From NCBI GenBank assembly GCA_021325385.1, contig JAJPHH010000139.1, positions 1 to 64,000 on the forward strand: 64,000 nucleotides of DNA, read 5' to 3'. The position numbers and the translations under genes were made by a program. The stretch comes from Alphaproteobacteria bacterium. Lineage in GTDB: Bacteria; Pseudomonadota; Alphaproteobacteria; Rhizobiales; Beijerinckiaceae. The notes beneath the pieces are model-generated. The model saw only the letters and a program-made list of their open reading frames with translations. It did no database searches and was not told the DNA's origin. Shown here one piece after another: positions 45,330 to 62,576 of this stretch (the first letter of the stretch is position 1; each line of letters starts with the position of its first letter).

Positions 45330-46082
45330 TCAGCCGGGATCGATCGGCGCGCCGGGCGACGTCCGCCTCACGCCGCCGAAAGCCGGCGCGGAAACGCGGG
45401 CGAACCGGTCCTCGACATAGGTTCGAAATTCCGCGATGTCTTCCGGCTCCGGCTCGCAGCCGGTACTGCTGCGTAAATAAGCCGGAACGTGCGAAAGGCG
45501 ACTCTCCATCGGCTCGCGCAAGTCAAGCGCATAGTACCCGATCTGCGTGAAATAAAGGACGCGAGCGCGGATGAAGGCGTCCTCGGCTTCATAGCCGTGC
45601 CGCCGGAACATCTCGCAGATCGCCGCGACCCGCTCTTCGTCCGCCTGGCGAATGATTTTTCTGACTTTCTTCGACAGCATCGCCCAGGATCGAATGGCGA
45701 AGTCCAGGCGGGGGTCGAAAAGGGAATCGTCGACCCAACATTTGAAAATATTGATCACGCCGCGCGTGACGTTCGCGGCGGGGAGACGGGCATGTTCGAC
45801 GACGAAACGGGTGTTCTTCTCGCGCCAATACGCCAGCAGCTGATCGAGGAGGTCGGCGCGACTTTTGAAATACCAATAGAAGCTCGATCGCGAGACGCCG
45901 AGCTTTTGGCTCAGCGTCAAGACGCGCACGCTGTCGACCCCGTCCGAGATCAGCGCGCCGAGAGCGGCGTTCAGCCAATCACCTCGCGTCGCTTTGACAT
46001 TTCCTGCGATGGCCGGCTTGGTGGGCGTTCGTTTAAGGCGCGGGTCGGACGGCCGTTTTGGGCGGGCGCGGTTCCGGATCAT
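45330..46082 (-). CDS. TetR family transcriptional regulator of the sarcosine oxidase operon
   Basis: A 250-residue regulator. After a basic leader, the TetR helix-turn-helix runs through WLNAALGALISDGVDSVRVL and LSQKLGVSRSSFYWYFKSRADLLDQLL. The rest is the helical ligand-binding domain. AAGGACGAG upstream of the ATG at 46082 supports this start, ten bases after soxG; the track's longer form runs into soxG. It is the last gene of the minus-strand operon. Two TGTACA-type palindromes 7.4 kb away at the operon promoter (53502, 53563) have the size and symmetry of TetR sites, which suggests feedback control; that link is inferred. Confidence 0.85.
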   Translation of the reverse strand: MIRNRARPKRPSDPRLKRTPTKPAIAGNVKATRGDWLNAALGALISDGVDSVRVLTLSQKLGVSRSSFYWYFKSRADLLDQLLAYWREKNTRFVVEHARLPAANVTRGVINIFKCWVDDSLFDPRLDFAIRSWAMLSKKVRKIIRQADEERVAAICEMFRRHGYEAEDAFIRARVLYFTQIGYYALDLREPMESRLSHVPAYLRSSTGCEPEPEDIAEFRTYVEDRFARVSAPAFGGVRRTSPGAPIDPG

Positions 46083-46092
46083 CGCTCGTCCT

Positions 46093-46644
46093 TCAGTGGC
46101 CATCGTCCTCGGCCGACGCCAAATTCTCGACAGTCGCCGCAAGCCAGGTCCAAAAATGCGACCCCATCGGCCGATCGATATGGATTCTCGCCGTCTCTGA
46201 ATCGCGATAGCGGTAGACGATCGCCTGTATCCCGGCGAAATTCATCGCCGCGCTCGGGCTTGTCCTGGACGGGTCCAGCGCGGTCGCGCGCGCCAGGATC
46301 TCCGACGAAAGCGCTCCCGTCAGTTCAAAGACGAGCAGCCCCGCGCTGATCGGCGTCGCGGCGAAGCCTTCGGCGCGCCACCCCGACGGCGCGACAAAGT
46401 CCGAAGGTCCGACCGCCAGGACTCGATCCCGCGCGAGCCGAACGCAGTAGCGGTCGCCTTGGGCGAGACCAAAGCCGCCGATATCCGCATGCGGAAAGCT
46501 CGCCTGGCGCGCCCAAGCTGCGAAATCGCCGCTGATAAGATGCTGGGCGAGCCCTGGCGCCGGCCGGACGCTGAGTCCCGGCCGATCCAAAGCCGCCGCG
46601 CGCCAGTCCGGCTGGGCCGGCCAGATGGCGGAAAGGTCATGCAT
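46093..46644 (-). CDS. soxG: sarcosine oxidase subunit gamma
   Basis: A 183-residue gamma subunit of heterotetrameric sarcosine oxidase, recognised from SGDFAAWARQASFPHADIGGF and the C-terminal RYRDSETARIHIDRPMGSHFWTWL, typical of SoxG. It has no catalytic residues of its own and stabilises the complex next to the folate site of the alpha subunit. It overlaps the end of soxA by eight bases. The order here is B-D-A-G, as in other bacteria. Confidence 0.88.
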   Translation of the reverse strand: MHDLSAIWPAQPDWRAAALDRPGLSVRPAPGLAQHLISGDFAAWARQASFPHADIGGFGLAQGDRYCVRLARDRVLAVGPSDFVAPSGWRAEGFAATPISAGLLVFELTGALSSEILARATALDPSRTSPSAAMNFAGIQAIVYRYRDSETARIHIDRPMGSHFWTWLAATVENLASAEDDGH

Positions 46645-49516
46645 TGAGCCGAGTCCCGCCCAAGTCGAAAGCGCAGGGCGCGCCGATCGTCGCGCGCCTC
46701 ATTTCGCCCAAATGCCTTATGTCGACCGCCTCGCCGCGGCGGCTCGCGCCGCGCTCGATCAATCCGAGCGCGATCGGAAAGCCAAGCGTCGGGCTCATAT
46801 AGCTGGAAGTGACATAACCGATGCTTCTCTGCTTTGATCCCACGGCTTCGACGCCATGCGCGCCCGTCGCCAGCGGCGGCTCGCCTGCCGAAACTGACAA
46901 TCCGACAAGCTGACGACGGTCCGCTCTTGTCGCCTCCTCGGTAAACAGCGATCGACGTCCGACATACTCGTCAAGACGTCTCTCGCGCGGTCCCGCCATG
47001 CCGAGATCATGCGGCATGGTTGCGCCGTCGGTATCTTTGCCGATGCCGATATACCCTTTCTCGGCGCGCAGGATCATCAACGCCTCGACGCCGATGACCG
47101 CCGCTTCGAAACGCTTGCCAAGCTCGATCAGCTGCATCCAGAGGTCTTCGGCTCGGTCGGCCGGCACGGAGATTTCGTAGCTCCTGTCGCCAGTAAAGCT
47201 GACCCGCGCGACGCGCATCTCGCCGCCCTGGAAATCGCCGTCGCAGACCGCCATATGCGGCAGAGCGGAATCGTCAAGGTCGATGCGCAAAGCCAGCTCG
47301 CTGAGCAGGGCTTTGGCGCGGGGACCAGAGACAGTGACCGTCGCAAGATGCGAGGTCGCATTATGGATGAAGAGCCGCTTGCGATCGAAGCGATCTTGCC
47401 GCCACTCCTCTAATCGGGCGTGAACCGCGCCGACATGCGAACTGGAGCAAGAGACGAGAAATCGATCCTCGCCCAGCCGTGCAAGCACGCCGTCGTCGAA
47501 GACGATTCCCGATTCGGACAGCATCAACCCGTACCGACAGCGGCCGGGTCTCAGCGTCGACATGGCGTTGTAGTAGATGAAGTCGACGAACTCAGCCGCC
47601 TGAGGTCCGACCACCTCGATCTTTCCGAGCGTCGAAGCGTCGAAAATCGCGGCCGAGCGCCGCGCCTGCCGCGCCTCTTCTTGAATTTGCGGTTCGCCAG
47701 GCCCGCCGCCATAATAAGCCGGCCGCAGCCAGCCGCCGTATTCGCGGAAAACCGCGCCGCGCGCCCGATGCGCGGCTTCGAGCGGAAGCCGCTTCAGCGG
47801 CGACATCAGCGCGCCGCCGCGCAGACCCGCAAGGCTCGCGAAGGACGTCGGCGCATAAGGCGGACGGTAGGTCGTCGTTCCGACTTCGGCAATTTGCCGG
47901 CCGGTGATCTCGGCCATCAGAGCCAAACCTCCGATATTCGAGGTCTTTCCCTGATCGGTGGCCATGCCCAGCGTCGTGTATCGCTTCAAATGCTCGACCG
48001 AGACGAAATTTTCGCGCGCGGCGAGTTCGACGTCCTTCGCCGTCACATCGCTTTGATAATCGATCCAGACGCGGTCTGTCCGCTCAGCGCTGCTCCAGAT
48101 CGGATCGATCCGTAGGGTATTTTCGCGCCCGGCGCTGACCGGAATCGGAGCGGCGCCGCCGCAGAATTCGCGCGCGGCCTTGGCGCCGCTGGCCAGCGTA
48201 TCGGCGAGCGAGATCGCGCCCGCCGCGGCGCCGGCGACGCTGAGGAGAGATGTCGGCCCCGCCGGCGCGAAGGCGGCAAGCTCGTCTCGCCAGGCGAGCT
48301 TGCCTCGCGCCTGGCAGAAGAGGTGGACGGTCGGCGTCCATCCGCCGGAAACGAGAATGCAATCGGCGGCGATTGTCGCGCCGTCGTTCAACATCGCTCC
48401 TTCGACGACCTGCCGGCCGCGAGCGCTTGTCAGTCTCCGGCCGAACCGGACGTCGCTCGCGAGCTTGCCGGCGCGCCCATTCGCGCGGCTGTCGATCACC
48501 GTCACCGCCGCGCCCGCTTCGGCTAAGGCGTCGGCGACTTCATAGGCGCTGTCGTTGTTCGTCGCGACGACGATGCGCTCGCCGACAATCACGCCATAGC
48601 GGCGCAGATAAATCAGCGCCGCGTCCGCGGACATGATTCCGGGCAGATCATTATTCGCAAAAGGCAGCGGCCGCTCGATTGCGCCCGCAGCCACGATCAC
48701 ATGCCGCGCCCGCACGCGCCACAGCGTGTCGGGCCTTGCCTCGCCGCGGCGTTGGGCAAGACCGACCAGATTGTGATCATAGACGCCAAACGCCGTGGTC
48801 GAGGGAAGGTACTCGACGCCTTGGCGCTTCAGCTCAGCGACAGCGGCTTCCGCCCAATCGATCGCGGCGGCGCCGTCGATCACGCCGGCGCGGTGGCGTA
48901 ACGAGCCGCCCGGTCGGGCGCCGTCGTCGACCAGGATAGTCGACGCGCCGGCCGAGCCGGCTTGCAACGCCGCCGCCAGACCCGCCGGGCCGGCGCCGAC
49001 GACAAGCAGATCGCAGTGGGCGTTGATCTGATCCGCCCTCCCGCCAGCAACCGAGGCTGGATCGACCCTGCCGAGCCCGGCCATCGCCCTTATGCGATTT
49101 TCGTACGAGCGCCAATTCGGCCAGAGGAAGGTCTTGTAATAGAAGCCCGCGGGGATGAAGCGGGCGAAGCGATCGAGAAACGCGTAGCGATCAGCGCGTG
49201 CAGTCGGCGAGGCGTTTACGCTGCGCGCGACGAGGCCAGGCCGAGCCGGCGCAACCGTCGCGCGCACGTTCGGCGTCAGGCGCCCCAAGTCGGCCACGTC
49301 GACCAGGGCGTTCGGCTCCTCGACGCCTGCGCCCCAAACGCCGCGCGGCCGATGGTGCTTAAAACTACGAGCGACGATTCTGATATTGCTGGCAAGCAAC
49401 GCCGACGCAATCGTATCGCCGTGAAAGCCATCGACCTTTTGCCCATCGAAAGCGAACTCAAGCGGCCGCGAGCGGTCGATGTCGCTCCCGCCCCGATCCA
49501 GGCGACGCGCGCTCAT
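46637..49516 (-). CDS. soxA: sarcosine oxidase subunit alpha
   Basis: The 959-residue alpha subunit. The N-terminus (FDGQKVDGFHGDTIASALLA) is the ferredoxin-like domain of this family, followed by a dinucleotide-binding domain with LLVVGAGPAGLAAALQAG and ATNNDSAYEVADALAEAG. The C-terminal 380 residues resemble aminomethyltransferase (GcvT) and bind tetrahydrofolate to capture the methyl group as methylene-THF. The holoenzyme oxidises sarcosine to glycine plus peroxide and a one-carbon unit. It overlaps soxD by four bases upstream and soxG by eight downstream. Confidence 0.95.
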   Translation of the reverse strand: MSARRLDRGGSDIDRSRPLEFAFDGQKVDGFHGDTIASALLASNIRIVARSFKHHRPRGVWGAGVEEPNALVDVADLGRLTPNVRATVAPARPGLVARSVNASPTARADRYAFLDRFARFIPAGFYYKTFLWPNWRSYENRIRAMAGLGRVDPASVAGGRADQINAHCDLLVVGAGPAGLAAALQAGSAGASTILVDDGARPGGSLRHRAGVIDGAAAIDWAEAAVAELKRQGVEYLPSTTAFGVYDHNLVGLAQRRGEARPDTLWRVRARHVIVAAGAIERPLPFANNDLPGIMSADAALIYLRRYGVIVGERIVVATNNDSAYEVADALAEAGAAVTVIDSRANGRAGKLASDVRFGRRLTSARGRQVVEGAMLNDGATIAADCILVSGGWTPTVHLFCQARGKLAWRDELAAFAPAGPTSLLSVAGAAAGAISLADTLASGAKAAREFCGGAAPIPVSAGRENTLRIDPIWSSAERTDRVWIDYQSDVTAKDVELAARENFVSVEHLKRYTTLGMATDQGKTSNIGGLALMAEITGRQIAEVGTTTYRPPYAPTSFASLAGLRGGALMSPLKRLPLEAAHRARGAVFREYGGWLRPAYYGGGPGEPQIQEEARQARRSAAIFDASTLGKIEVVGPQAAEFVDFIYYNAMSTLRPGRCRYGLMLSESGIVFDDGVLARLGEDRFLVSCSSSHVGAVHARLEEWRQDRFDRKRLFIHNATSHLATVTVSGPRAKALLSELALRIDLDDSALPHMAVCDGDFQGGEMRVARVSFTGDRSYEISVPADRAEDLWMQLIELGKRFEAAVIGVEALMILRAEKGYIGIGKDTDGATMPHDLGMAGPRERRLDEYVGRRSLFTEEATRADRRQLVGLSVSAGEPPLATGAHGVEAVGSKQRSIGYVTSSYMSPTLGFPIALGLIERGASRRGEAVDIRHLGEMRRATIGAPCAFDLGGTRLNA

Positions 49517-49776
49517 GGTTCGCGGCCGCTATTCGGCGACGAGTCTGCGACGACGTGGGTCGAGGCGTCGCGCGTCATGACGAAGAATTCGCCGCAGGTC
49601 ATGTGCATCCAGATTTCGCGGGATGGGCCTGTGGGATTGGCGCGGAACCAAAGGTAGTTCGCCCAAAAGTCGGCCGAGACGTTCGCGCCTTCCGGCCGCA
49701 CATTTCCCGCCTCGCCGCCATAGTGGAACTCGGTCTCGTCGCGAGGGCCGCAAAAAGGACAAGGGAAGAGCTGCAT
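49513..49776 (-). CDS. soxD: sarcosine oxidase subunit delta
   Basis: The 87-residue delta subunit: MQLFPCPFCGPRDETEFHYGG at the start, then FWANYLWFRANPTGPSREIW and HMTCGEFFVMTRD. The CPFC pair and later Cys/His residues bind the structural zinc of the complex. It is placed between soxB (7-base gap) and soxA (4-base overlap). Confidence 0.93.
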   Translation of the reverse strand: MQLFPCPFCGPRDETEFHYGGEAGNVRPEGANVSADFWANYLWFRANPTGPSREIWMHMTCGEFFVMTRDASTHVVADSSPNSGREP

Positions 49777-49783
49777 GGCCTCC

Positions 49784-51037
49784 TCAATGGGCGATGCCGG
49801 AGCCGGCCGCCTCGTCGATCAACCGTCCTTTGGCGAAGCGGCTTAGGTCGAAAGGCCTGCTGATCGGATGATGGGCGCCTTTCGCCAGCAGATGGGCGAG
49901 CATCGTTCCGCCGGCGGGAATCGCTTTGAATCCGCCGGTGCCCCAACCGCAATTGAGATAGAGGCCGGGAAGCGGCGATTCGCCGATAATCGGCGAACTA
50001 TCGGGGACGACGTCGACGATCCCCGCCCATTGCCGCATCAGCTTGAGCTGGCCGAAAGCCGGGAACATCTCGATCAAGCCGGCGATCACCGTCTCGAGAA
50101 CCGGCAGATTGCCGCGCTGCGCATAGGACGGGATGCGGTCGAGACCGCCGCCGATCACCAGTTCGCCCTTGTCGGATTGGCTGACATAAGTCCCCGTCCC
50201 GAGCGACGTGACGACTGTGTCGAGGATCGGCTTGACCGGCTCGGAGACGCAGGCCTGCAGCGCATAGGAATTGATCGGCAGCTTGAATCCGGCCAGGGCG
50301 GCGAGCGCCGAGGAATGACCCGCGACGGCCATGCCCGTCCGCTCGGCGCGAATGGGACCGAGCGACGTCTCGACGCCGCGGCAACGGCCGGCCTCGATGA
50401 TGAAGCCAAGCGCCTCGCAATTCTGGATGATGTCGACGCCGAGACCGCTGGCGGCCCGCGCATAGCCCCAGGCCACCGCGTCGTGCCGAGCGACGCCGGC
50501 GCTCGGCTGCCAAACGCCTCCATGGACCGGAAAACGCGCTTTTGGCGAGAAATTGTAGATCGGCGCGACGCGGCGCACATCCTCCGACGAGAACAGCTCG
50601 GCGTCGACGCCGTTGATCTGCATGGCGTTGACGGTTCTGGCGGCGATCTCCATCTCCGCCTCGCTATGGCAGACCGTCACCATGCCGCGCGGCGAGAACA
50701 TGATGTTGTAGTTCAGCTCAGCGGACAGGCTTTTGTAGAGCCGATGCGACAGGCCATAGAGCGCGACGCTCTCCGGGTAGAAATAGTTGGAGCGGATCAC
50801 CGTTGTGTTCCGCCCGGTATTGCCGCCGCCGATCCAGCCTTTCTCGAGCACCGCCGTGCGGCGAATTCCGTGAGTCTTGGCGAGATAATAGGCCGCCGCC
50901 AGACCATGGCCGCCGCCGCCGATGACGATGGCGTCGTACGACGTCTTGGGGACAGGCGTGCGCCAAGCCGGCGCCCAGCCACGGTGGCCGGTCAGGCCTT
51001 CCTTCAACAGCGAAAGAGCCGAGTAGCGTCTGGTCAT
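49784..51037 (-). CDS. soxB: sarcosine oxidase subunit beta
   Basis: The 417-residue flavoprotein subunit that oxidises the N-methyl group. It has an FAD-binding dinucleotide fold at the N-terminus (YDAIVIGGGGHGLAAAYYLAK), then WIGGGNTGRNTTVIRSNYF and a C-terminal FAD contact near LYLNCGWGTGGFKAIPAGG. The ATG at 51037 (MTRRYSALSLLKEGLTGHRGW) matches the family start; the track start at 51082 would overlap the upstream gene. The ribosome site is weak, and the 13-base gap suggests translational coupling to the dehydrogenase upstream. Confidence 0.93.
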   Translation of the reverse strand: MTRRYSALSLLKEGLTGHRGWAPAWRTPVPKTSYDAIVIGGGGHGLAAAYYLAKTHGIRRTAVLEKGWIGGGNTGRNTTVIRSNYFYPESVALYGLSHRLYKSLSAELNYNIMFSPRGMVTVCHSEAEMEIAARTVNAMQINGVDAELFSSEDVRRVAPIYNFSPKARFPVHGGVWQPSAGVARHDAVAWGYARAASGLGVDIIQNCEALGFIIEAGRCRGVETSLGPIRAERTGMAVAGHSSALAALAGFKLPINSYALQACVSEPVKPILDTVVTSLGTGTYVSQSDKGELVIGGGLDRIPSYAQRGNLPVLETVIAGLIEMFPAFGQLKLMRQWAGIVDVVPDSSPIIGESPLPGLYLNCGWGTGGFKAIPAGGTMLAHLLAKGAHHPISRPFDLSRFAKGRLIDEAAGSGIAH

Positions 51038-51050
51038 CGTTCGCTGCGCC

Positions 51051-53462
51051 TCATGAGCGCATTCTCGCCCCGGACGGATCATGAGGCGACCGCGCGATCA
51101 CCTTCGCGGCGCGCTCGACGCCGACAATATGCGTCGTCAGCTCAGTCCCGACCCCGGCGCAATCGCGGTCGAGCATCGCCAAGGCGAGGCTCTTGCCGAT
51201 CGTATGCCCGTAGCCGCCCGAGGTGACGAAGCCGACTCGCCTCCCGTTCCTCCAGACAGGCTCATAGCCGCCGGCGTCGGCGCCGATCGCGTCGATTTCG
51301 AGCGTCGCGATTCGCCGCCGCGCGCCGTTTCGCTGTTCGTTCAAGGCCGCTTCGCGCCCGATGAAATCGCCCTTGTCGAAGGCGATCCACTGGTCGAGGC
51401 CGGTCATGCCCGGCGTGTAGTCCTGGGTGAATTCGCGCGACCAGACGCCGAAGCTCTTTTCGAGGCGAAGCGAGCCAACCGCGTTGAACCCATATTCGAT
51501 CGCGCCAAGCCCCCCGCCGGCGTCGAGCAACGTCCGGCGCAGCGCCGCGTGCTCATTCGCCAAGCAATGAATCTCATAGCCAAGCTCGCCCGAAATCGAC
51601 AGGCGGCCGACCTTCGCCCTGATCAGGCCGATATCGAGCGTCGTGCAACCGAGAAACGGCAGGGCCGCCGACGATACGTCTTGATGCGTCGTCCGTTCGA
51701 GCAATTTGCGCGCGTTCGGCCCGGCCAACGAAAAGCCGACGATCGCATCGGAGACGTCGCGCAGCGAAACGCCGTCCCCAAGATGGCGCTCGAACCAGCG
51801 CATGTGCCATTGCCTGAGATAGTACGATCCGACGATCCACCAGAGGCCGCCGCCCCAGTTGAAGACGGTAAGATCGCCTTTCAGCTTGCCGTTCGGCCCG
51901 AGCATGGGCGCGAGCTTGGCCCGGCCGGGCCTGGGCAAGGGGCAGGCGAGCAGCCGGTCGAGCCACGCTTCGGCGTTGCGGCCCGAGATTTCGTAGCGGG
52001 AGAAGGCCGAGATATCGAGAATGCCGACGCCCTCACGCACTTTACGGCACTCTCCTCCGACCAGGTCGAAAGCGTTGGAGCGTTTCAGCGTCGGCTTCTC
52101 GGCAAAATTCTGCGGCGCGAAATAGAGCGGAACCTCCATGCCCCAGGAAACGCCCCAACGCGCGCCGGCCGCCGCCATCGCGTCATGCGCGCCCGCCATG
52201 CGCAGCGGCCTTCCCGCCGGCAATTGCTCGTTCGGATAGTTCATGACGAAGCGCCGGGAATAGAACTGGCCGGTCGATTGCCGAATGTATTCCCGGTTCG
52301 ATGCGAAGTCGCCGTAACGGGCGACGTCCATGCCGAACACGTCCGCTTCCGGCTCGCCATGGATCATCCATTCCGCCAGCGACTTGCCGACGCCGCCGCC
52401 CTGGAGAAACCCCGCCATGACGCCGCAGGCGACCCAATAATTGGGAACGCCGCGCACCGGGCCGACCAGCGGATTGCCGTCCGGCGAGAAGGTGAACGCG
52501 CCGTTCACCCACCGCTTGACGCCGGCCGTCTCGAGGCAGGGATAGCGGCGGAAGCCGAGCGCCAGTTCCTCGGAGATGCGGTCGACATCTTCCTGGATCA
52601 GCTCCGCGCCGTAATCCCAGGGCGCGCCCTCCATATGCCAATGCTTCGGCTTGAGCTCGTAGATGCCGAGGAGCAGGCCTTTCTGCTCCTGGCGCATATA
52701 GGTGAAGCCTTCGAGGTCGACGACGAGCGGCAACTCTTTATCCAGCGCTCGGATTTCCGGGATCGCCTCGGTGACCAGATAGTGATGCTCCATTGGCGTG
52801 ACCGGCAGATCGATCCGCGCCATGCGGCCGACTTGCTTGGCCCAAAGACCGGCGGCGTTAACGACATGGTCAGCGACCAGCGGACCCCGCTCGGTCGTGA
52901 CGAGCCAGCTTCCATCGCTGCGGCGGTCGAGCGCGAGAACTCTGTTCTGCTCGACTATTTCCGCGCCGCGCCGCTTGGCCGCCTTCGCGTAGGCATGGAC
53001 CACGCCCGACGGATCGATATAGCCCTCGCGCTCGGCATAGAGTCCGCCGATGACGCCATCCGTATCGATGATCGGGCAGCGCGCCTTGATCTCGTCGACG
53101 TCGATCAGGCGGACGTCTTCGATGCCCATGGTCTGGAAGATGCGATAAGAGGCTTTGAGCCACTCCCACCGCTCGGACGCCGAGGCGATCGATATGCCGC
53201 CGGTCATGTGCATGCCTATATTCTGGCCGGATTCGCGCTCGACTTCAGAGAGGAGGTCGATCGTATAGGCTTGCAGCGCGGCGATGTTCGGATCGGCGTT
53301 GAGGGCGTGAAAGCCGCCCGCCGCGTGCCAGCTCGAGCCGGCGGTCAGAGTTTTGCGCTCGATCAGGAGAATGTCGGTCCAGCCGAATTTCGCGAGATGA
53401 TAGAGGACCGACGCCCCGACGACGCCGCCGCCGACGACGACTGCCCGATAATGCGTCTTCAC
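51051..53462 (-). CDS. dimethylglycine/sarcosine dehydrogenase-like FAD enzyme with GcvT domain
   Basis: An 803-residue flavoenzyme related to mitochondrial dimethylglycine and sarcosine dehydrogenases. The FAD domain begins VVVGGGVVGASVLYHLAKFGW; the His of TAGSSWHAAGGFH is the family's covalent FAD site. The C-terminal half (FAEKPTLKRSNAFDLVGGECRK, then GcvT-like CHLAN, EYGFNAVGSLRLEK, FIGREAALNEQRNG) binds folate. It likely demethylates dimethylglycine or another N-methyl amino acid, giving the sarcosine that the next enzyme uses. First gene of the minus-strand operon, facing the ABC importer across a promoter with two palindromes. Exact substrate not determined. Confidence 0.9.
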   Translation of the reverse strand: MKTHYRAVVVGGGVVGASVLYHLAKFGWTDILLIERKTLTAGSSWHAAGGFHALNADPNIAALQAYTIDLLSEVERESGQNIGMHMTGGISIASASERWEWLKASYRIFQTMGIEDVRLIDVDEIKARCPIIDTDGVIGGLYAEREGYIDPSGVVHAYAKAAKRRGAEIVEQNRVLALDRRSDGSWLVTTERGPLVADHVVNAAGLWAKQVGRMARIDLPVTPMEHHYLVTEAIPEIRALDKELPLVVDLEGFTYMRQEQKGLLLGIYELKPKHWHMEGAPWDYGAELIQEDVDRISEELALGFRRYPCLETAGVKRWVNGAFTFSPDGNPLVGPVRGVPNYWVACGVMAGFLQGGGVGKSLAEWMIHGEPEADVFGMDVARYGDFASNREYIRQSTGQFYSRRFVMNYPNEQLPAGRPLRMAGAHDAMAAAGARWGVSWGMEVPLYFAPQNFAEKPTLKRSNAFDLVGGECRKVREGVGILDISAFSRYEISGRNAEAWLDRLLACPLPRPGRAKLAPMLGPNGKLKGDLTVFNWGGGLWWIVGSYYLRQWHMRWFERHLGDGVSLRDVSDAIVGFSLAGPNARKLLERTTHQDVSSAALPFLGCTTLDIGLIRAKVGRLSISGELGYEIHCLANEHAALRRTLLDAGGGLGAIEYGFNAVGSLRLEKSFGVWSREFTQDYTPGMTGLDQWIAFDKGDFIGREAALNEQRNGARRRIATLEIDAIGADAGGYEPVWRNGRRVGFVTSGGYGHTIGKSLALAMLDRDCAGVGTELTTHIVGVERAAKVIARSPHDPSGARMRS

Positions 53463-53501
53463 CCCGCCTCCCCCCTTTGACAGTCGGCAGGCTAACGGCG
53501 T

Positions 53502-53517
53502 TGTACACGTCTGTCCA
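53502..53517. promoter_or_regulatory. putative TetR operator, copy 1
   Basis: TGTACACGTCTGTCCA: half-sites TGTACA and TGGACA (reverse strand) face each other across four bases. It lies 40 bases upstream of the dehydrogenase start. A close copy is 61 bases away, about six helix turns. The size and symmetry fit a TetR dimer. Confidence 0.65.
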
Positions 53518-53562
53518 GTCGTCGGTCGCCGCCCCAGAATTTTCCCGCCCCGAGCCGATCAA

Positions 53563-53578
53563 TGTACACGCTTGTCTA
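53563..53578. promoter_or_regulatory. putative TetR operator, copy 2
   Basis: TGTACACGCTTGTCTA, with inverted half-sites TGTACA and TAGACA. It matches copy 1 at 13 of 16 positions, and matching extends two bases on the right (GT). It lies 68 bases before the ABC binding-protein gene, so one repressor could control both divergent transcripts. Confidence 0.65.
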
Positions 53579-53645
53579 GTGCAAGCGAATTCGATAGCTT
53601 TTGCCGCGAGCGGTCTTGGGAGGGCCCTCGAACAGGGAGAACGCT

Positions 53646-55358
53646 ATGGCTATCGACAGAAGCCGCGGACAGGCGGGCGACGCAGACGCGCGCAACATCA
53701 GCGCCGAGCCCCGAAATCGCGTAAGCCGACGCGACGTGCTGCGCGCCGGCGGCGCAGCCGGGCTGGCGATCGGCGGCTTATCCGGCGCCGCCACGCTCGG
53801 CCTGCCGCTCGCGGCGCGGGCCGCGACGCCTGGTCAATGCGTTCTCGGCGTGACCCAGGAGGCGGTCAACTTCAATCCGCTGCTCTACGTCAATACCGGG
53901 GTCGAGACATCGGTCGAATTTATCGTCTTCGACGCGCTCTGGAAGATCGATCCATCGGGCGCTTTCGTTCCGAACCTCGCCGCCGAGATTCCGACGCAGG
54001 AGAATGGCGGGATTTCAAAAGACGGCCTGACTTGGACGATCAAGCTTCGCGACGGCGTGACCTGGCATGACGGCGCGCCGTTCACCGCGGCCGACGTGGT
54101 CTTCACGCTCGACACTCTGCTCAATCCCAAAGTCACGGTGCGCAGCCGCAACGGCCACGACCACGCGGAGCATTACGAGGCGGTCGACGATCATACGATC
54201 CGCATCAAGCTGAAGGACAATTACGCGCCCTATATGGTCTCTTGGCAGAAGACCAGCATCATTCCAAAACACATCCTCAGCAGCGTCGCCGACATCAATA
54301 CAGCGCCTTTCAACACCAATCCCGTCGGCACCGGCCCGTTCAAATTCAAGAACCGGGTCGCGGGCAGCTACATCGAATTCGAGCCGAACGCCAAATATCA
54401 TGCGGGTTCGCCGAAGCTGACCTCGTTAATCCAAAAATACGTTCCCGATCAGCAATCGCTCTACGCCCAATTCCAGACCGGCGAAGTCGACATTTACGAC
54501 CTGCAGGGCATTCCGCCGCTGCTTTATCAAAAGGCCAAAGCGCTGCCCGGCTCGAAAATTCTGCTCAGTCCGTTGCCTTTCGTCGAATTCATCTACTTCA
54601 ATTGCGGCAAGCCGCAATTCCAGGACAAGCGCGTCCGCAAGGCGATCTATATGGCGATCGACAAGAAGGGCTGGATCGACGCGGTCTATTACGGCGTGCC
54701 GCTGCCGACCTTAAGCTATCTTGCGCCGAACCATTGGGCCTATAACAAGAAGCTCGTCGATCCCGGCTTCAATCCGGGCAAGGCGGCGGCGCTTCTCGAC
54801 GAAGCGGGCTGGAAGGTCGGAAGCGACGGCGTGCGCGCCAAAGACGGCGTGCGGCTCGCCTTCTCCATGTCGACGACCGCCGGCAACAAGTCGCGCGAGC
54901 AGGCGCAACAGCTCGTTCAGCAGAACTTGAAGAAGATCAATGTCGAGATGACGATCAACAACATGCCGGCGTCGGTCGTCTGGGGCGATTATACGGTCAA
55001 GAGCCAATACGATACGCTGATGGTCGGCTGGGACCCCCTGCTCTATCCCGATCCCGACTATAGCGATCGAATCGTCAGCAAGGCGATTCCGGCCAAAGGC
55101 GGCAACGGCTCGAACTATGTGCAATACGAGAATCCCGAGATCGACGATTTGTGCGCAAAAGGCGTCGCCGCGGTCGGTCAGGCGGAGCGCAAGGCGATCT
55201 ATGATCGCATTCAGGAAATCCTGCTCGACGACATGCCGTTTGCGCCGATTTTCTCCTACGAGCTGCTGATCGGGGTGAAAGACCGCGTCAAAGGCTACGA
55301 GGTCAATCCCTATACGCCGATCAATTCCTGGAACACCGGAGAGTGGTCCACGACGTGA
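53646..55358 (+). CDS. ABC transporter substrate-binding protein, peptide/nickel/opine family (SBP_bac_5)
   Basis: A 570-residue periplasmic binding protein with a long Tat-type signal (NRVSRRDVLRAGGAAGLAIGG, twin Arg) and cleavage near ARA-ATPG. The family core follows: VFDALWKIDPSGAFVPNLA, LTWTIKLRDGVTWHDGAPFTAADVVFTLD, and YIEFEPNAKYH. Group members bind peptides, opines or other amino-acid derivatives. The start at 53646 follows GGGAGA. It is the first gene of a five-gene importer operon divergent from the dehydrogenase, and probably brings in the substrate of that pathway. Confidence 0.93.
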   Translation: MAIDRSRGQAGDADARNISAEPRNRVSRRDVLRAGGAAGLAIGGLSGAATLGLPLAARAATPGQCVLGVTQEAVNFNPLLYVNTGVETSVEFIVFDALWKIDPSGAFVPNLAAEIPTQENGGISKDGLTWTIKLRDGVTWHDGAPFTAADVVFTLDTLLNPKVTVRSRNGHDHAEHYEAVDDHTIRIKLKDNYAPYMVSWQKTSIIPKHILSSVADINTAPFNTNPVGTGPFKFKNRVAGSYIEFEPNAKYHAGSPKLTSLIQKYVPDQQSLYAQFQTGEVDIYDLQGIPPLLYQKAKALPGSKILLSPLPFVEFIYFNCGKPQFQDKRVRKAIYMAIDKKGWIDAVYYGVPLPTLSYLAPNHWAYNKKLVDPGFNPGKAAALLDEAGWKVGSDGVRAKDGVRLAFSMSTTAGNKSREQAQQLVQQNLKKINVEMTINNMPASVVWGDYTVKSQYDTLMVGWDPLLYPDPDYSDRIVSKAIPAKGGNGSNYVQYENPEIDDLCAKGVAAVGQAERKAIYDRIQEILLDDMPFAPIFSYELLIGVKDRVKGYEVNPYTPINSWNTGEWSTT

Positions 55359-55382: not shown

Positions 55383-56339
55383 GTGTTGCGGTTTCTGGCT
55401 CACCGGCTCGCCCAGTCCGTCGTTCTTCTGCTCGGCGTCTCCATCATCGGCTTTGGGCTGATGCACTTGGCGCCGGGCGGCCCCCTGGCCCTTTATACGA
55501 TTAACCCGACCGTCACTGCGCAGGACATAGAGCGCGTCAAAGCCCAGTTTGGATTGGACCAGCCGGTCGCCATCCAGTACCTCAAATGGGCCGAGGGCAT
55601 GTTCACCGGCAATTGGGGTTATAGTTTCTTCGGCGGCCAGCAGGTGCGCGAGATCGTCCTTGACCGGATGCCGGCGACGCTCGAACTGATGGGAACCAGT
55701 CTGTTTCTCGCCCTGATGATCGGCGTCACGATCGGAATCGTCTCGGCGGTACGCCGTAATTCGGTCGCCGATTATGCGAGCGCTGTCGCCGCCATGATCG
55801 CGCTGTCTCTGCCGACCTTCTGGTTCGGCCTGCTCGCCATCTATCTGTTTGCGCAAACGCTGGAATGGCTGCCCGCCGGCGGCGTCGCCAGCACGAGCGG
55901 CGGCGATCTGGTCGACCGCCTTCGCCATCTCGTTCTCCCGGTCGCCGTGCTGTCCTTCGTCCTTGTCGCGCAATGGAGCCGCTATACGCGGTCCGCGATG
56001 CTGGACATTCTGAACCAGGATTATATCCGCACCGCTGAGGCCAAGGGCCTGAAGCGATCGCGCATCCTGCTGAATCATGCGCTGCGCGCCTGCCTTGCGC
56101 CGCTGATCACGCTCGCCGGCTTGCAATTGCCTCTGCTGGTCGGCGGCGCCCTGGTTACGGAGACCGTCTTCAGCTGGCCCGGCATGGGCCTGCTCTTCGT
56201 CAACGCGCTCGGCATGCGCGATTATCCGGTCCTCATGGCGATCCTGATGGTCAGCGCCTTCGTCGTAGTCCTCGGCAATCTCCTCGCCGACATCGCCGTC
56301 GCGCTGGTCGATCCGCGGGTCAAGCTCGGCTATGGTTGA
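55383..56339 (+). CDS. ABC transporter permease, DppB type
   Basis: A 318-residue inner-membrane permease with six helices, beginning MLRFLAHRLAQSVVLLLGVSIIGFGLMHLAPGG. The EAA-like loop for contact with the ATPase is DYIRTAEAKGLKRSRILLNHALR, followed by FSWPGMGLLFVNALGMRDYPV. The start codon is GTG with GGAGAG upstream. It lies 24 bases after the binding-protein gene and overlaps the second permease by eight bases. Confidence 0.93.
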   Translation: MLRFLAHRLAQSVVLLLGVSIIGFGLMHLAPGGPLALYTINPTVTAQDIERVKAQFGLDQPVAIQYLKWAEGMFTGNWGYSFFGGQQVREIVLDRMPATLELMGTSLFLALMIGVTIGIVSAVRRNSVADYASAVAAMIALSLPTFWFGLLAIYLFAQTLEWLPAGGVASTSGGDLVDRLRHLVLPVAVLSFVLVAQWSRYTRSAMLDILNQDYIRTAEAKGLKRSRILLNHALRACLAPLITLAGLQLPLLVGGALVTETVFSWPGMGLLFVNALGMRDYPVLMAILMVSAFVVVLGNLLADIAVALVDPRVKLGYG

Positions 56340-57234
56340 CGTTCCCGCCGCCGAAATCATCCTGCCGAGACCGGCGCAGCGCTTCGGCGCCCTGCGGCGG
56401 CTGCTCCGACACCGGCTCGCGGCTTTAGGTTTGATCGTTATCGGCTTGCTCGCCATCGGCTCGGCTGGCGCGCCCTGGCTCGCGCCGTACCAGCCTGACG
56501 ACATCGATATCGCCCAGCGTTACGCGCCGCCGCTCTCGGAAGGACATATTCTCGGCAGCGACGATCTCGGCCGAGACGTGCTGACGCGCCTGCTCTATGC
56601 CGGCCAGGTGTCGCTGTCGGTCGGCCTCGCGGCGATGCTCGTCACTGTGCTGGTCGGCTTCGCCGTCGGTGCTTTCGCCGCCTACCACGGCGGCTGGGTC
56701 GATATTGCCCTGATGCGGTTGACGGACATCATGCTCTGCTTTCCGAGCGTGTTCCTGCTGCTCTTCGTCGCCGCCTTCGTTACGCCAAGCCTCGCTTCAA
56801 TCGCGCTGATGATTGGGCTCACCTGCTGGATGGAGATCGCCCGCATTGTCTATGTGCAGATCCTCACCTTGAAATCCGCGGATTTCATCGCCGCGGCGCG
56901 AATGGTCGGCGCGCCGTCCTGGCGGATCATCTTCCGTCAGATCCTGCCCAATACGCTGGCGCCGATCCTGGTCGCGGCGACATTGAACATGGCGAACGCC
57001 ATTTTGCTCGAGAGCTATATCAGCTTCCTCGGTTACGGCATTCAGCCGCCCGCCGCGAGCTGGGGCAATATGTTGACCAACGCGCAGAGCGATTTCCAGG
57101 TCGATCCGTGGCTCGCCATTCTGCCTGGCCTCGCCATAACGCTGGCCGTGGCCAGCTTCAACTTCATCGGCGATGGACTTCGCGACGCGCTCGATCCGAG
57201 AATGCGCGAACGAAGCGCCGGCGCTTTGCGATGA
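56332..57234 (+). CDS. ABC transporter permease, DppC type
   Basis: A 300-residue permease. It has an N-terminal cytoplasmic tail, the OppC/DppC first helix (LRHRLAALGLIVIGLLAIGSAGAPWLAPYQP), HILGSDDLGRDVLTRLLYAGQVSL, and the ATPase-contact loop SADFIAAARMVGAPSWRIIFRQILPN. It pairs with the DppB-type permease to form the channel and overlaps its neighbours on both sides (8 and 4 bases). Confidence 0.93.
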   Translation: MVDVPAAEIILPRPAQRFGALRRLLRHRLAALGLIVIGLLAIGSAGAPWLAPYQPDDIDIAQRYAPPLSEGHILGSDDLGRDVLTRLLYAGQVSLSVGLAAMLVTVLVGFAVGAFAAYHGGWVDIALMRLTDIMLCFPSVFLLLFVAAFVTPSLASIALMIGLTCWMEIARIVYVQILTLKSADFIAAARMVGAPSWRIIFRQILPNTLAPILVAATLNMANAILLESYISFLGYGIQPPAASWGNMLTNAQSDFQVDPWLAILPGLAITLAVASFNFIGDGLRDALDPRMRERSAGALR

Positions 57235-58172
57235 CCGCCCTCCTCGAAGTCGAAAAGCTCGCTGTCTCGTTCGGGACGATGCGCGCGGTCGACGCCATCT
57301 CCTTCACGGTCGAGTCCGGCGAAATCTTGGGCCTGGTCGGCGAGAGCGGCTGCGGCAAGACGACCGCCGCTCTGGCGCTGATGCGGCTGCTCCGCGGCGC
57401 GACCTGCACGGGCGCCGCCCGGCTTGCCGATGTCGACCTTTTTTCGCTCGACGAGCCCGCCATGCGCGCGCGCCGCGGCTCCGACCTCGCGATGATCTTT
57501 CAGGATCCGGCGACCGCCTTACATCCGACCATCCAGGTCGGCGATCAGCTCGTCGAGACCCTCCGCACGCATCTCAATTTGAGCGCCAGACAGGCGCGCA
57601 GCCGCGCGCTCGATCTTTTCCGCAAAGTGGGCATCGCCGCGCCCGAGGCGCGGCTTAGGGCCTTCCCGCACGAACTCTCCGGCGGCATGTGCCAGCGCGT
57701 CATGATCGCGATGGCGATCGCCTGCTCGCCGCTTCTGCTCCTGGCGGACGAGCCGACGACCGCGCTCGACGTCACGGTGCAAGCGCAAATTCTGGATCTG
57801 CTGCGGCAGGTGACGCGCGAAGCCGGAATGAGCGTCGTCCTCATCACCCATGACCTCGGCGTCGTCGCCGGCATGGCCGATCGGGTTGCGGTGATGTATG
57901 CCGGCGCGATCGTCGAAATGGCCGGGACGGATCGCCTGTTCGCCGCGCCGAGGCACCCCTATACGCGCGGGCTGCTCGCCTCTATCCCCGCCCTCGATCA
58001 GGGCTGGGACGAGCCGATCCCGACGCTCGCCGGAAGCGTGCAGAGCGCCTTCGAGGTTCCCGGCTGCCGCTTTTCGCCTCGCTGCCCGCTCGCTTCCGAA
58101 ATCTGCCGCTCCGCCCCGAGCTTGCGCGAGGTCGCGCCCGGCCATTTCGTCTCGTGCTGGAACGCGGCATGA
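57231..58172 (+). CDS. ABC transporter ATP-binding protein, DppD type
   Basis: A 313-residue ATPase with Walker [14 protein letters not shown]-loop [15 protein letters not shown], signature [14 protein letters not shown], Walker [13 protein letters not shown], and the switch in [14 protein letters not shown]. The C-terminal oligopeptide-type extension with cysteines ([20 protein letters not shown]) suggests the iron-sulfur-like cluster site known in DppD/OppD. ATGA overlaps on both sides. Confidence 0.93.
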
Positions 58173-59152
58173 CGGAAAAGCTGATCGAAGCGATCGGCGT
58201 GACGCGCCATTACAAGCTCGCCGGCGGTCGCGTCCTTCGCGCCTTGGACGGCGTCGATCTCGCCATCGGCCGCGGCGCGACGCTCGGCCTGGTCGGCGAA
58301 AGCGGCAGCGGCAAGAGCACGCTCGGCCGCGTCATGGTCGGCCTGCAATCGCCGACAGAAGGCGAGATTCGTTTCGAAGGGCTGAACGCGGCCGCCGCCG
58401 ACCCCGCCCAGTCCGTCCGGCTGCGTCGGCAGCGTCAGATCGTCTTTCAGGATCCGTCCGGCGCGTTAAATCCGCGGATGACGATCGGCGATACGATCAT
58501 CGAACATTTGCGGGTGCAGGGCTGGTCTCGCGTCGAGGCGCGCGAGCAAGCGGCTAGGGTTCTCGACGATTGCGGCCTTTCCGCTTCGTTCCTTTCCGCC
58601 TATCCGCACGAGATTTCCGGCGGGCAACGCCAGCGCGCCGTCATCGCCCGCGCGATCAGCACCGATCCCGCCTTCATCGTCGCTGACGAACCCGTCTCGG
58701 CGCTGGACGTTTCCACTCGGGCTCAGATCATGAACCTGCTGCGCGACTTGCAGCGGACGCGCGGCCTGACCATGCTGTTCATCAGCCATGATCTCAGCGT
58801 GGTCGCTCATATGTGCCGGGACGTCGCCGTGATGTATCTCGGGCGGATCGTCGAAATTGCGCCGCGCGGCGTCCTGTTCAAGTCGCCGTTGCACCCTTAT
58901 ACCGCCGCGCTCATCTCGGCGATTCCCTTGCCCGATCCGGCGCGCGAGCGGACGCGGCGACCCATTCTGCTCAAAGGCGAGCCGCCGGACCCATCGGCGA
59001 CGCCGAAGGGCTGCCGATTTCATACGCGATGCCCGCGCGCCACCGATTTGTGCCGCGAGGTCGATCCGGAAACGCGAGCCTTTTCCAGCGCCCATATGGC
59101 GGCTTGCCATCATCCGCTGACGCAAGCGCCGGTTGAGCGGACGATAGCGTGA
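58169..59152 (+). CDS. ABC transporter ATP-binding protein, DppF type
   Basis: A 327-residue second ATPase with Walker [17 protein letters not shown]-loop [15 protein letters not shown], signature [14 protein letters not shown], Walker [13 protein letters not shown] and switch His in [14 protein letters not shown]. It also has the C-terminal cysteine-rich extension ([20 protein letters not shown]). The last gene of the importer operon; its stop lies four bases from the stop of the convergent dipeptidase gene. Confidence 0.93.
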
Positions 59153-59156
59153 CGCC

Positions 59157-60125
59157 TCAAAAAGACTGCGCGATAAAATTCCCCCACGCGCCGCCAAGCA
59201 CCGAGGCGATCTCGCCGGGCGCGAAGCCGACCGCCGCCAGGCCGTCGGCCAGGGCGGGAAAGTCTCTGTTGGAGCGGAACCATTCAGGCGGCGGCGGGAA
59301 CGCGGCCGCATCGTCCTTAACTCGCGTCCAGCGGCCTTCGCGCATCCAGCGCACGACGCTGTCGGGTTGGTTCTGGCAAAGGTCCGATCCGACGCCGAGG
59401 CGTTCGACGCCGATGATCTGCGCCGCCTCGGCCGCCATCTCGCCGAATTGCCGCAACGTGGTCGCGCCGCCCTGCGGCAGGTGCAGAGGGTACAGCGAGA
59501 GGCCAAGAACGCCTCCACGCTCGCGCAGGGCTTTCAGGACCGCCTTCGAGACGTTGCGGCCGGTATCCTTCAACCAGCGCGGATTGGCGTGGCTGATCAC
59601 GACCGGACGACGCGACAGTTCGATCGCTTCGAGCGCGGTCCGCTCGCCGGCATGGGAAAGGTCGACCGCCATGCCGACGCGGTTCATCTCGGCGATCGCC
59701 TCGCGGCCCATGCGCGTGACGCCGCTGTCTTCGCGCTCCATCCAACCGCAGCCGAGCAGCGATTGATTGTTGTAAGTCAGCTGCATGAATCGAACGCCCA
59801 GATCGAACAGGATTTCGATCAGGCCGAGATCGTCCTCTATCGCCATCGGCGTCTGCAGTCCCAAGAAGATCGCGGTGCGCCCCGAAGCGCGAGCGCGTTC
59901 GACATCGCTCCAGTTGCGGGCCAGGAGGATCAGGTCCTCGTGCTCGTGAAACCGCGCCCGCCAATCGACGAGATGACGGACGGTCTGGCGAAAGCCTTCA
60001 TGATAGCTCGCCGTCGCATGCACCGCCGTCAATCCGCCGGCGCGCATCTCGAGGAAGATTTCGCGCGACCAGTTGCAATATTGCAGCCCGTCGATGCGCA
60101 GGGGCGGCGCCGCGTCCGCGCTCAT
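59157..60125 (-). CDS. membrane dipeptidase (peptidase M19, renal dipeptidase family)
   Basis: A 322-residue dinuclear-zinc peptidase of the M19 family. Visible family features are FMQLTYNNQSLLGCGWMERE, the GMAVDLSHAGERTALEAIELS stretch with a metal-binding His, PVVISHANPRWLK, and GVERLGVGSDLCQ near the end. The N-terminal HxD motif of canonical members is not obvious, so metal binding may differ. Similar M19-like genes lie next to dimethylglycine demethylation genes in pseudomonads, fitting this context. It starts at 60125, overlapping the aldehyde dehydrogenase stop by four bases; the longer track frame is antisense of that gene. Confidence 0.85.
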   Translation of the reverse strand: MSADAAPPLRIDGLQYCNWSREIFLEMRAGGLTAVHATASYHEGFRQTVRHLVDWRARFHEHEDLILLARNWSDVERARASGRTAIFLGLQTPMAIEDDLGLIEILFDLGVRFMQLTYNNQSLLGCGWMEREDSGVTRMGREAIAEMNRVGMAVDLSHAGERTALEAIELSRRPVVISHANPRWLKDTGRNVSKAVLKALRERGGVLGLSLYPLHLPQGGATTLRQFGEMAAEAAQIIGVERLGVGSDLCQNQPDSVVRWMREGRWTRVKDDAAAFPPPPEWFRSNRDFPALADGLAAVGFAPGEIASVLGGAWGNFIAQSF

Positions 60126-61570
60126 TCCGGCGCGCCCGCATAAATGTACGACGTTTTCATCTGCGTATAAAATTCGACCGCCGCCCGTCCCTGCTCGCGC
60201 GGTCCGTAGCTCGAGGCGCGTACGCCGCCGAACGGCACATGATAATCCGTGCCCGCGGTCGGCAGGTTGACCATCACGCAGCCCGAGCGCGACGCCTGGC
60301 GGAATTTCGTCGCCCGCGCCAACGAGCGCGTCGCGATGCCGGCGGTCAGGCCATAGGGCGTATCGTTCGCGACGGCGATCGCCTCGTCGAGATCGGCGAC
60401 GGAAATGACGCAAGTGATCGGCGCGAACATTTCTTCCTGGTTGATGCGCATGCGCGAGCGGCCATTGAGAAAAACGGTCGGCGCCATGTAGTGGCCCTTG
60501 TGCGTCAGTTCGAGCGCCTGGCCTCCATACGCGAGTTCGGCGCCCTCGCATCGGCCGAGCGCGACATAGTCGAGATTGGCCGCGAGCTGCTCGGCGCTGA
60601 TCACCGGGCCCATCTGGACGCCCGCCTCGAGCGCGTGGCCCACTTTCAGCGCGCGCGTCTTGGCGAGCAACAGCTCGACGAAGGCGTCATGGATCGGACG
60701 ATGGACGATCAGCCGGGAGGCGGCGGTGCATTTCTGGCCGGCGCCGCCAAAGGCGCCATTGACGGCGAGGTCCGCGGCGCGGTCGAGATCGGCGTCGTCC
60801 ATGACGACGAACGGGTTCTTCGAACCCATTTCGAGCTGCAGCTTGATGAAACGCGCAGCCGCAGCCGCCGCAATGCCGGAGCCGACAGCGCCCGATCCAG
60901 TAAAACTGAGCCCTTGAATATCGGCTTTCGCCGCAAGCTCGCGGCCGATCGCCGAGCCTGGGCCCATCACCAGGTTGAACAGGCCTTTCGGAATCGCCTG
61001 CCGGCTGACGATCTCGGTCAGCGCCCAGGCGCTGGCGGGCGTAACGTTCGCAGGCTTCCAGACCACGGCGTTGCCGAAAGCCAGCGCCGGCGCGATCTTC
61101 CAGGACGCGGTCGCGATCGGGAAATTCCACGGCGAGATGATTGCGACGACGCCGAGCGGCTCGCGCGCGACGAGCGTTTCGACGCCGGCGCGCACCGACT
61201 CGCCGGAGGAGCCGAGATTGCGCAGCGCTTCGCCGGCGAAATAGGCGAAGAACTGCCCGGCCCGATAGACCTCGCCGACGCCCTCCGGCAAGGTCTTGCC
61301 TTCCTCGCGCGACAGCAATTCGCCGAGCTCCTTGGAGCGGGCCATCAGCTCCCGGCCGATCGCGTCGAGCGCAGCCGCGCGCGCTTCGAGCCCCGCGGCC
61401 GCCCATTGCGGCTGCGCAACGCGCGCCGCAGTGACAGCCTCGTGGACGTCCGCGAGCGAGGCTTGCGCGAAGCGGCCGACGAGGTCGCTGACGTCAGACG
61501 GACTGACGTCCTCGATCCAATCGGCGCTGTCCCGCCATTCGCCCGCGATGAAATTCCGGCCGGTCAGCAT
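60122..61570 (-). CDS. NAD(P)-dependent aldehyde dehydrogenase
   Basis: A 482-residue ALDH. NAD-binding and active-site features are PLGVVAIISPWNFPIA, LSFTGSGAVG, the catalytic Glu in LQLEMGSKNPFVVMDD, and the catalytic Cys in FGGAGQKCTAASRLIV. It resembles the ketoglutarate-semialdehyde/succinate-semialdehyde dehydrogenase branch, but the substrate is not certain. Its neighbours (dipeptidase, N-methyl amino acid oxidation) suggest an aldehyde derived from an amino-acid side chain or a demethylation product. First gene of a two-gene minus-strand operon divergent from the LysR gene. Confidence 0.9.
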   Translation of the reverse strand: MLTGRNFIAGEWRDSADWIEDVSPSDVSDLVGRFAQASLADVHEAVTAARVAQPQWAAAGLEARAAALDAIGRELMARSKELGELLSREEGKTLPEGVGEVYRAGQFFAYFAGEALRNLGSSGESVRAGVETLVAREPLGVVAIISPWNFPIATASWKIAPALAFGNAVVWKPANVTPASAWALTEIVSRQAIPKGLFNLVMGPGSAIGRELAAKADIQGLSFTGSGAVGSGIAAAAAARFIKLQLEMGSKNPFVVMDDADLDRAADLAVNGAFGGAGQKCTAASRLIVHRPIHDAFVELLLAKTRALKVGHALEAGVQMGPVISAEQLAANLDYVALGRCEGAELAYGGQALELTHKGHYMAPTVFLNGRSRMRINQEEMFAPITCVISVADLDEAIAVANDTPYGLTAGIATRSLARATKFRQASRSGCVMVNLPTAGTDYHVPFGGVRASSYGPREQGRAAVEFYTQMKTSYIYAGAPE

Positions 61571-61667: not shown

Positions 61668-62576
61668 GTGGGAAAAGCGATCAGTCTAGCCGGCATGCGC
61701 AGCTTCGTCGCGGTGTGCGAAGCCGGCGGCGTGCGCGCCGCGGCAGACCAGATCGGCCGCACGCCGTCCGCCGTTTCCATGACGCTGAAGCAACTCGAGG
61801 ACGATGTCGGCGCGCCGCTCTTCGAAGGCGAGCGGCGCGGCGAGCTCTCGCCGGTCGGCCGGATCGTGCTCGAAGAAGCGCGCGCCATGATCGCCCATTA
61901 CGATCGCGCCTGCTCGACGATGACGACGTACGCCGCCAATCGACTTGGGCGCTGCGACGTCGCCAGCGTGCCGTCCGTCGCGGCGACGCTGCTGCCGCGC
62001 GCGATCGCCCGCGCCCGCGCGGAAGGCGCGGCGTTCGAGATTCACGTGCGCGACAGCGATTCCGGCGCAATCGTCGAGGCGGTGGAGAACGGCGTCGTCG
62101 AGATCGGGCTTTGCGTGCTCGCCAGCCGTCGGCCGCAATTGACCTTCGAGCCTCTGTTCCGCGAGCCGCTCGATTTCGTCTGCCCGGCCGATCATCCGCT
62201 CGCCAAGTCGAAACGGCCCCTGACATGGTCGCGCCTCGAAGGCGCGCGGCTCATTCAGAATGGCAGCGCCGCCGCCCTCGGCCTCGCCGAAATCGACGCG
62301 CTGGCGGCAAATTCGAAGTTGATCGCGAGCAATGTCACCTCCAATCTCGCCATGGTCGAAGCGGGGCTCGGCGTGACCATTCTGCCGCGCCTGTGCCGCT
62401 GGAAATGCGGATACGCCGTCAGCTTCGCGCCGCTCGCCGATCCGCGCGCCAGCCGCACGGTCGGCTGGATCGCGAAGACCGGCCGCGCGCTGCAACCGGC
62501 GGCGCGCCAAGTCGTCGACTGCATCCGCAAACAGGCGCGCGAGGCCGCGAAGGAGTTCGGCTATGCGGCGCTGTGA
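61668..62576 (+). CDS. LysR family transcriptional regulator
   Basis: A 302-residue regulator. The winged helix-turn-helix (MRSFVAVCEAGGVRAAADQI, then GRTPSAVSMTLKQLEDDVGAPLFEGE) is followed by the linker and a periplasmic-binding-type effector domain (VCPADHPLAKSKR and SNVTSNLAMVEAGLGVTILP). GTG at 61668 is the first start in frame; ATG at 61695 is an alternative. It faces the aldehyde dehydrogenase operon across a palindrome, the classical LysR arrangement, and probably also drives the downstream dehydrogenase. Confidence 0.93.
   Translation: MGKAISLAGMRSFVAVCEAGGVRAAADQIGRTPSAVSMTLKQLEDDVGAPLFEGERRGELSPVGRIVLEEARAMIAHYDRACSTMTTYAANRLGRCDVASVPSVAATLLPRAIARARAEGAAFEIHVRDSDSGAIVEAVENGVVEIGLCVLASRRPQLTFEPLFREPLDFVCPADHPLAKSKRPLTWSRLEGARLIQNGSAAALGLAEIDALAANSKLIASNVTSNLAMVEAGLGVTILPRLCRWKCGYAVSFAPLADPRASRTVGWIAKTGRALQPAARQVVDCIRKQAREAAKEFGYAAL

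Follow-up and report, generated by a model that had tools for sequence, protein, structure and literature searches.

Genes and Palindromes at the Divergent Locus

The window, that is, the whole stretch of 64,000 nucleotides that we have analyzed, contains two divergent operons. The leftward operon (- strand) comprises, in this order, DMGDH, SoxB, SoxD, SoxA, SoxG and TetR. Its first gene (51051–53462) codes for a DMGDH-like FAD/folate demethylating dehydrogenase, with DAO, FAO_M and GcvT domains according to Pfam and orthologs of 66–81% identity. It is followed by SoxB (49784–51082, sarcosine oxidase beta family, TIGR01373 above cut-off), SoxD (49513–49776, sarcosine oxidase delta, PF04267), SoxA (46637–49516, sarcosine oxidase alpha family, TIGR01372 above cut-off) and a SoxG-like sarcosine oxidase gamma subunit (46093–46644), which has no Pfam or NCBIfam match and is assigned by position. 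The last gene codes for a TetR-family regulator (45330–46082).

The rightward operon (+ strand) starts at ATG 53646 with the family-5 solute-binding protein (SBP) of a dipeptide-type ABC importer (53646–55358, PF00496), followed by two permeases (55383–57234) and two ATPases (57231–59152, Dpp/Opp ATP-binding families). The first permease has an Opp/Dpp-type match, the second (56332–57234) is assigned from ORF order. In the N-terminal part of the SBP (53646–53780), the signal region, NRVSRRDVLRAGGAAGLAIGG, contains RR and is Tat-like, which is unusual for binding proteins of the Dpp/Opp type. M19 peptidase and aldehyde dehydrogenase (ALDH) genes (59157–61570) adjoin the importer; they have no operator in the window and may be controlled by the divergent LysR gene at 61668.

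According to the first-pass annotation, the only TetR gene of the region is the last gene of the sox operon. This is correct: The 111-kb contig has a single TetR_N match, at 45840–45974, out of 24 in the whole genome, and the TetR start codon (ATG 46082, with an SD) is found about 10 nt past the soxG stop, so that the operon ends with TetR. The helix-turn-helix is well recognized (PF00440, 38.9 bits, cut-off 24), and the AlphaFold2 model (pLDDT 81.5, all helices) predicts an all-helical fold with a C-terminal ligand-binding/dimer domain. Foldseek matches this model best with structures that mostly belong to the TetR family, among them TetR(D), FasR, FadR and QacR. None of the named TetR equivalogs in NCBIfam (AcuR, MtrR, TetR, AcrR and others) is reached, the best one giving 30.1 bits with a cut-off of 280. 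A PDB sequence search only gives matches at the level of the HTH and the Foldseek matches are generic for TetR, so the inducer cannot be read off from them.

The gap of 183 bp between the DMGDH-like gene and the importer contains two 16-mers, which had been described as near-identical palindromes 61 bases apart. We have confirmed their coordinates: Site 1 is TGTACACGTCTGTCCA at 53502–53517 (TGGACAGACGTGTACA on the - strand) and site 2 is TGTACACGCTTGTCTA at 53563–53578 (TAGACAAGCGTGTACA on the - strand). They are identical in 13 of 16 positions, their starts are 61 bp apart, and the repeat becomes an 18 nt direct repeat when extended. Both palindromes are imperfect, with 5/6 symmetric half-site bases in site 1 and 4/6 in site 2. 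They are predicted to be TetR operators, site 1 for the promoter of the DMGDH-sox operon and site 2 for that of the importer.

Distribution of the Motif in Related Genomes

TetR orthologs are found in 122 of the 398 genomes of the order (E ≤ 1e-10). A scan of the genome collection with the single TetR protein as query gave no matches; an alignment query did give loci. In 17 of 20 loci (L038–L057, 375 kb), a palindrome of the form TRNACANNNNTGTNYA adjoins TetR, DMGDH or SoxB, and all occurrences of this form in the 375 kb are beside these genes. The TetR orthologs refine the motif to the consensus TRKACANNNNTGTMYA, to which site 1 is an exact match. We have found 128 consensus sites in 80 further TetR loci (L125–L204, 1.55 Mb), which are mostly from Mesorhizobium and partly overlap the previous set. 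Practically all of these sites (127) are located at most 350 bp upstream of the start of TetR, DMGDH, SoxB, MTTB, ALDH, SBP or M19 genes; the remaining one is at a decayed-DMGDH/sox promoter. Since the loci are mostly from Mesorhizobium, these sites share ancestry, which counts against the operator reading.

The motif follows the presence of this TetR. It is found in all 12 scanned loci of DMGDH orthologs (66–81% identity) whose genome contains the TetR, as well as in the window, at distances of 44–131 bp upstream of DMGDH. A further DMGDH ortholog with a site is found in G209 (contig C8). The motif is absent from the three DMGDH orthologs in genomes without the TetR (G068, G135 and G208), from the single one in G079, where the only TetR homolog of the genome has 44% identity, and from all 13 DMGDH paralogs; some of the scanned loci are short, so that their negative entries are weak. 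In three genomes (G044, G069 in contig C5, and G136), the DMGDH site is present even though the TetR gene is far away, and a gene of the MttB superfamily (MTTB) has a remote site in front of it in G044 and G310. These remote sites show that the pattern is not explained by linkage alone. In the window and in L046, L055 and L173, the operon ends with TetR and has the site at its front. This comparison of related genomes, set beforehand as a test, found the palindromes conserved in the promoters of TetR, DMGDH and SoxB orthologs, and the suggestion that they are probable TetR operators is thus supported at the level of sequence.

Some other features of these loci should be mentioned. In several of them, decayed remnants of DMGDH, consisting of C- or N-terminal pieces only, are found beside the operator (L040:9228-9491, L042:10505-10772, L149:10845-11112 and L045:9387-9554), which shows that this gene has been lost repeatedly in some Mesorhizobium. 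MttB-superfamily methyltransferase genes adjoin DMGDH/TetR or follow a remote operator in six loci, the assignment being based on PF06253 in L041, L049 and L051 and on sequence resemblance in L043, L112 and L117. A scan of viral contigs with the importer SBP gave no matches.

Chance Expectation and Other Sites in the Genome

Judged from the window alone, the pair of sites stands out only a little: Among 20,000 Markov samples of the gap, 52 contain two 16-mers as alike and as symmetric, and a 3-mismatch pattern scan of the 64 kb finds no enrichment over shuffles. This last result would favor a resemblance by chance, or promoter elements which have no regulator of their own, an explanation to which we give practically no credit in view of the related genomes. 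The consensus learned from them appears at least once in only 2 of 60,000 Markov samples of the gap, and twice in none of 60,000, so the pair is far from chance as judged by sequence comparison. In the TetR loci, the 128 sites, all at relevant promoters, should be compared with a mean of 0.5 matches (maximum 23) for permuted palindromes (n = 359). Furthermore, both sites are conserved islands in a second species, described below.

In the 5.35-Mb genome, the exact consensus is found in three places, two of them in the gap. Allowing two mismatches gives 87 matches, fewer than the control and mostly noise; exact matches alone were used to define sites in this genome. The third exact match is a perfect palindrome, TGGACAATCGTGTCCA, at G000:C44:12783-12798 (L003:1501-1516). 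It is near genes for a Crp-type regulator and a beta-helix-repeat-like protein, 5.6 kb from another TetR, and has no evident target. An extra site in contig C69 was discarded: It is inside a coding gene. The genome has two MTTB genes, neither of them with an operator site.

Sites at Both Promoters

The layout of the window is also found in Aestuariivirga sp. YIM B02566 (L173), where an SBP gene (78%) is divergent to DMGDH (78%)-SoxBDAG-TetR (64%). It has two consensus sites 66 bp apart, compared with 61 bp in the window. When the two intergenic regions are aligned, both sites appear as conserved islands with the same orientation, while the surrounding DNA has diverged; the counterpart of site 2 is TAGACAAGnnTGTACATT, at the same place. 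In both species there are sites in the promoters of both arms, with tetR under one of them, as in an autoregulatory divergent pair. Beyond the window, this two-site divergent layout has been seen in the Aestuariivirga genome only.

Possible core promoters may be read by eye on both sides. The predicted importer promoter (53572–53600, + strand) is TTGTCT-N17-TAGCTT, with its -35 element inside site 2, and Aestuariivirga has TTGTCT-N17-TAGCCT at the same place, also with the -35 inside the site. The predicted promoter of the DMGDH operon (53489–53517, - strand) is TGGACA-N17-TAGCCT, a weak consensus, with the -35 and spacer inside site 1. A generic promoter scan finds no sigma-70 match, and the predicted -35 and -10 elements are weak matches.

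Two other readings should be considered here. Both sites might serve only the leftward DMGDH-sox-tetR promoter, one as the proximal and the other as an auxiliary operator, perhaps with looping, while the importer is constitutive or otherwise controlled. In fact, paired sites 14 or 21 bp apart are common at single TetR-linked promoters in relatives, and importer SBP homologs elsewhere in the order (43–48% identity) have no site (0/19). We consider this unlikely. The wide spacings are only found between divergently transcribed importer and DMGDH genes, each of which has one site shortly before its start; the importer-side TTGTCT-N17-TAGCYT is kept in both species with site 2 on top of it; and the change from 61 to 66 bp, half a helical turn, speaks against phased looping, which is disfavored. 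Separate importers also have sites of their own: In Mesorhizobium (L198 and L202), they are found before the SBP gene of a different importer and before an M19 gene, unlike the M19 gene of the window.

The second reading concerns the sign of the control. Some TetR proteins are activators, so this one might activate transcription, or activate one arm and repress the other. This is improbable: On both arms the sites overlap the predicted -35 or spacer, a repressing position, and in relatives they are found at the tetR promoter itself, which is typical of autorepression.

A feedback loop switching both arms together had been proposed from the window alone. The part of this proposal which concerns the sites holds, since in two species each promoter has one and, in L198 and L202, others precede unrelated importer genes; the switching itself we infer.

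Recognition Helix and Operator Type

The recognition helix of this TetR and its orthologs, VSRSSFYW(Y/F)F, is found together with T(A/G)(G/T)ACA (TRKACA) half-sites. A sister clade has the helix VTRGSFYWHF, and CATACANNNNTGTATG-type palindromes with CATACA half-sites are found in 6/6 loci. The recognition-helix type thus matches the half-site type across the two clades, according to the sequences compared. The helix positions which differ between them align with residues 37 and 39 of Tn10 TetR, in which the V36F/E37A/P39K change switches operator specificity (PMC6515661). The CATACANNNNTGTATG palindromes are located upstream of the sister-clade TetR in L024, L028, L030, L036 and L057, often as pairs 20 bp apart.

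Similar sites are also found near other TetR genes. In Mesorhizobium, the look-alike operators TAGACAAGAGTGTCTA and TAGACAGGCTTGTCCA (at about 1501 in L118 and L120) are recurrent near a gene for a Bcr/CflA-type MFS transporter; in L118, the site is between this gene and an unrelated TetR. We have not included these sites in the regulon: They belong to the different TetR beside the transporter. In the genome of the window, two look-alike sites 28 bp apart (G000:C109:9646-9689) lie a short distance before the gene of another TetR (TetR_N at C109:9778).

Such look-alikes would favor a different DNA-binding protein as the real ligand of sites 1 and 2, either the LysR at 61668 or one of the 23 remaining TetR proteins of the genome. 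We regard this as very improbable: The motif is lost without this TetR and changes with its recognition helix. As for LysR, there is no site near its gene in the window, and the gene is outside the conserved context.

Discussion

These results lead us to propose that the palindromes are, very probably, the operators of a substrate-responsive, autoregulatory TetR repressor which controls both arms. Without inducer, a TetR dimer would bind site 1, over the -35 and spacer of the DMGDH-SoxBDAG-TetR promoter, and a second dimer would bind site 2, over the importer -35, and RNA polymerase would thereby be blocked in both directions. The ligand which binds the C-terminal domain of TetR and releases it from the DNA may be an N-methylated compound or one of its catabolites; the importer and the demethylating enzymes would then be induced together. 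Located at the end of the operon, tetR would be induced too, a negative feedback which would shut the system once the substrate is gone. The nutrient is most likely N-methylated, as suggested by the target families: DMGDH, sarcosine oxidase and MttB-type methyltransferase.

Several known systems are comparable. As in Tn10-type TetR with its paired tetO, there is a TetR_N helix-turn-helix and a pair of palindromes between divergent genes, with sites over the (here predicted) core promoters and probable control of its own gene. Unlike that system, tetR is distal in a long catabolic operon instead of divergent to an efflux pump, the half-site is T[AG][GT]ACA, and the sites are 61–66 bp apart, one per promoter. 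The AcuR-type repressors (acuR-acuI-dddL, PMC3017554) are also encoded inside the catabolic operon which is thought to be their target, but their enzymes and gene order are different, and the AcuR model only gives 18.8 bits here, with a cut-off of 247. The target genes belong to the same families as those of methylated-amine catabolism (heterotetrameric sarcosine oxidase, DMGDH and the MttB superfamily). In the open-access literature searched, there is no description of this TetR, its operator or its regulon. The mechanism is ordinary, a case of classical TetR autoregulation; the regulator-operator pair and the regulon appear to be uncharacterized in that literature.

We lean slightly towards a wider interpretation, in which this TetR would be the specific master regulator of an uncharacterized Hyphomicrobiales regulon for an N-methylated, possibly peptide- or betaine-like, nutrient, including the dipeptide-type importer, M19, MttB-type, DMGDH, SoxBDAG and ALDH genes, and the helix change from VSRSS to VTRGS in the sister clade would switch the operator from TRKACA to CATACA.

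In summary, a TetR subfamily which has no name so far and is widespread in Mesorhizobium and its relatives may now be assigned a definite operator and a list of targets, with which its inducer can be sought by a simple reporter. The motif tags the MttB-type methyltransferase, the M19 peptidase and the importers as probable partners acting on an N-methylated compound, and the sister clade provides a natural test of how TetR proteins choose their operators by changing their recognition helices.
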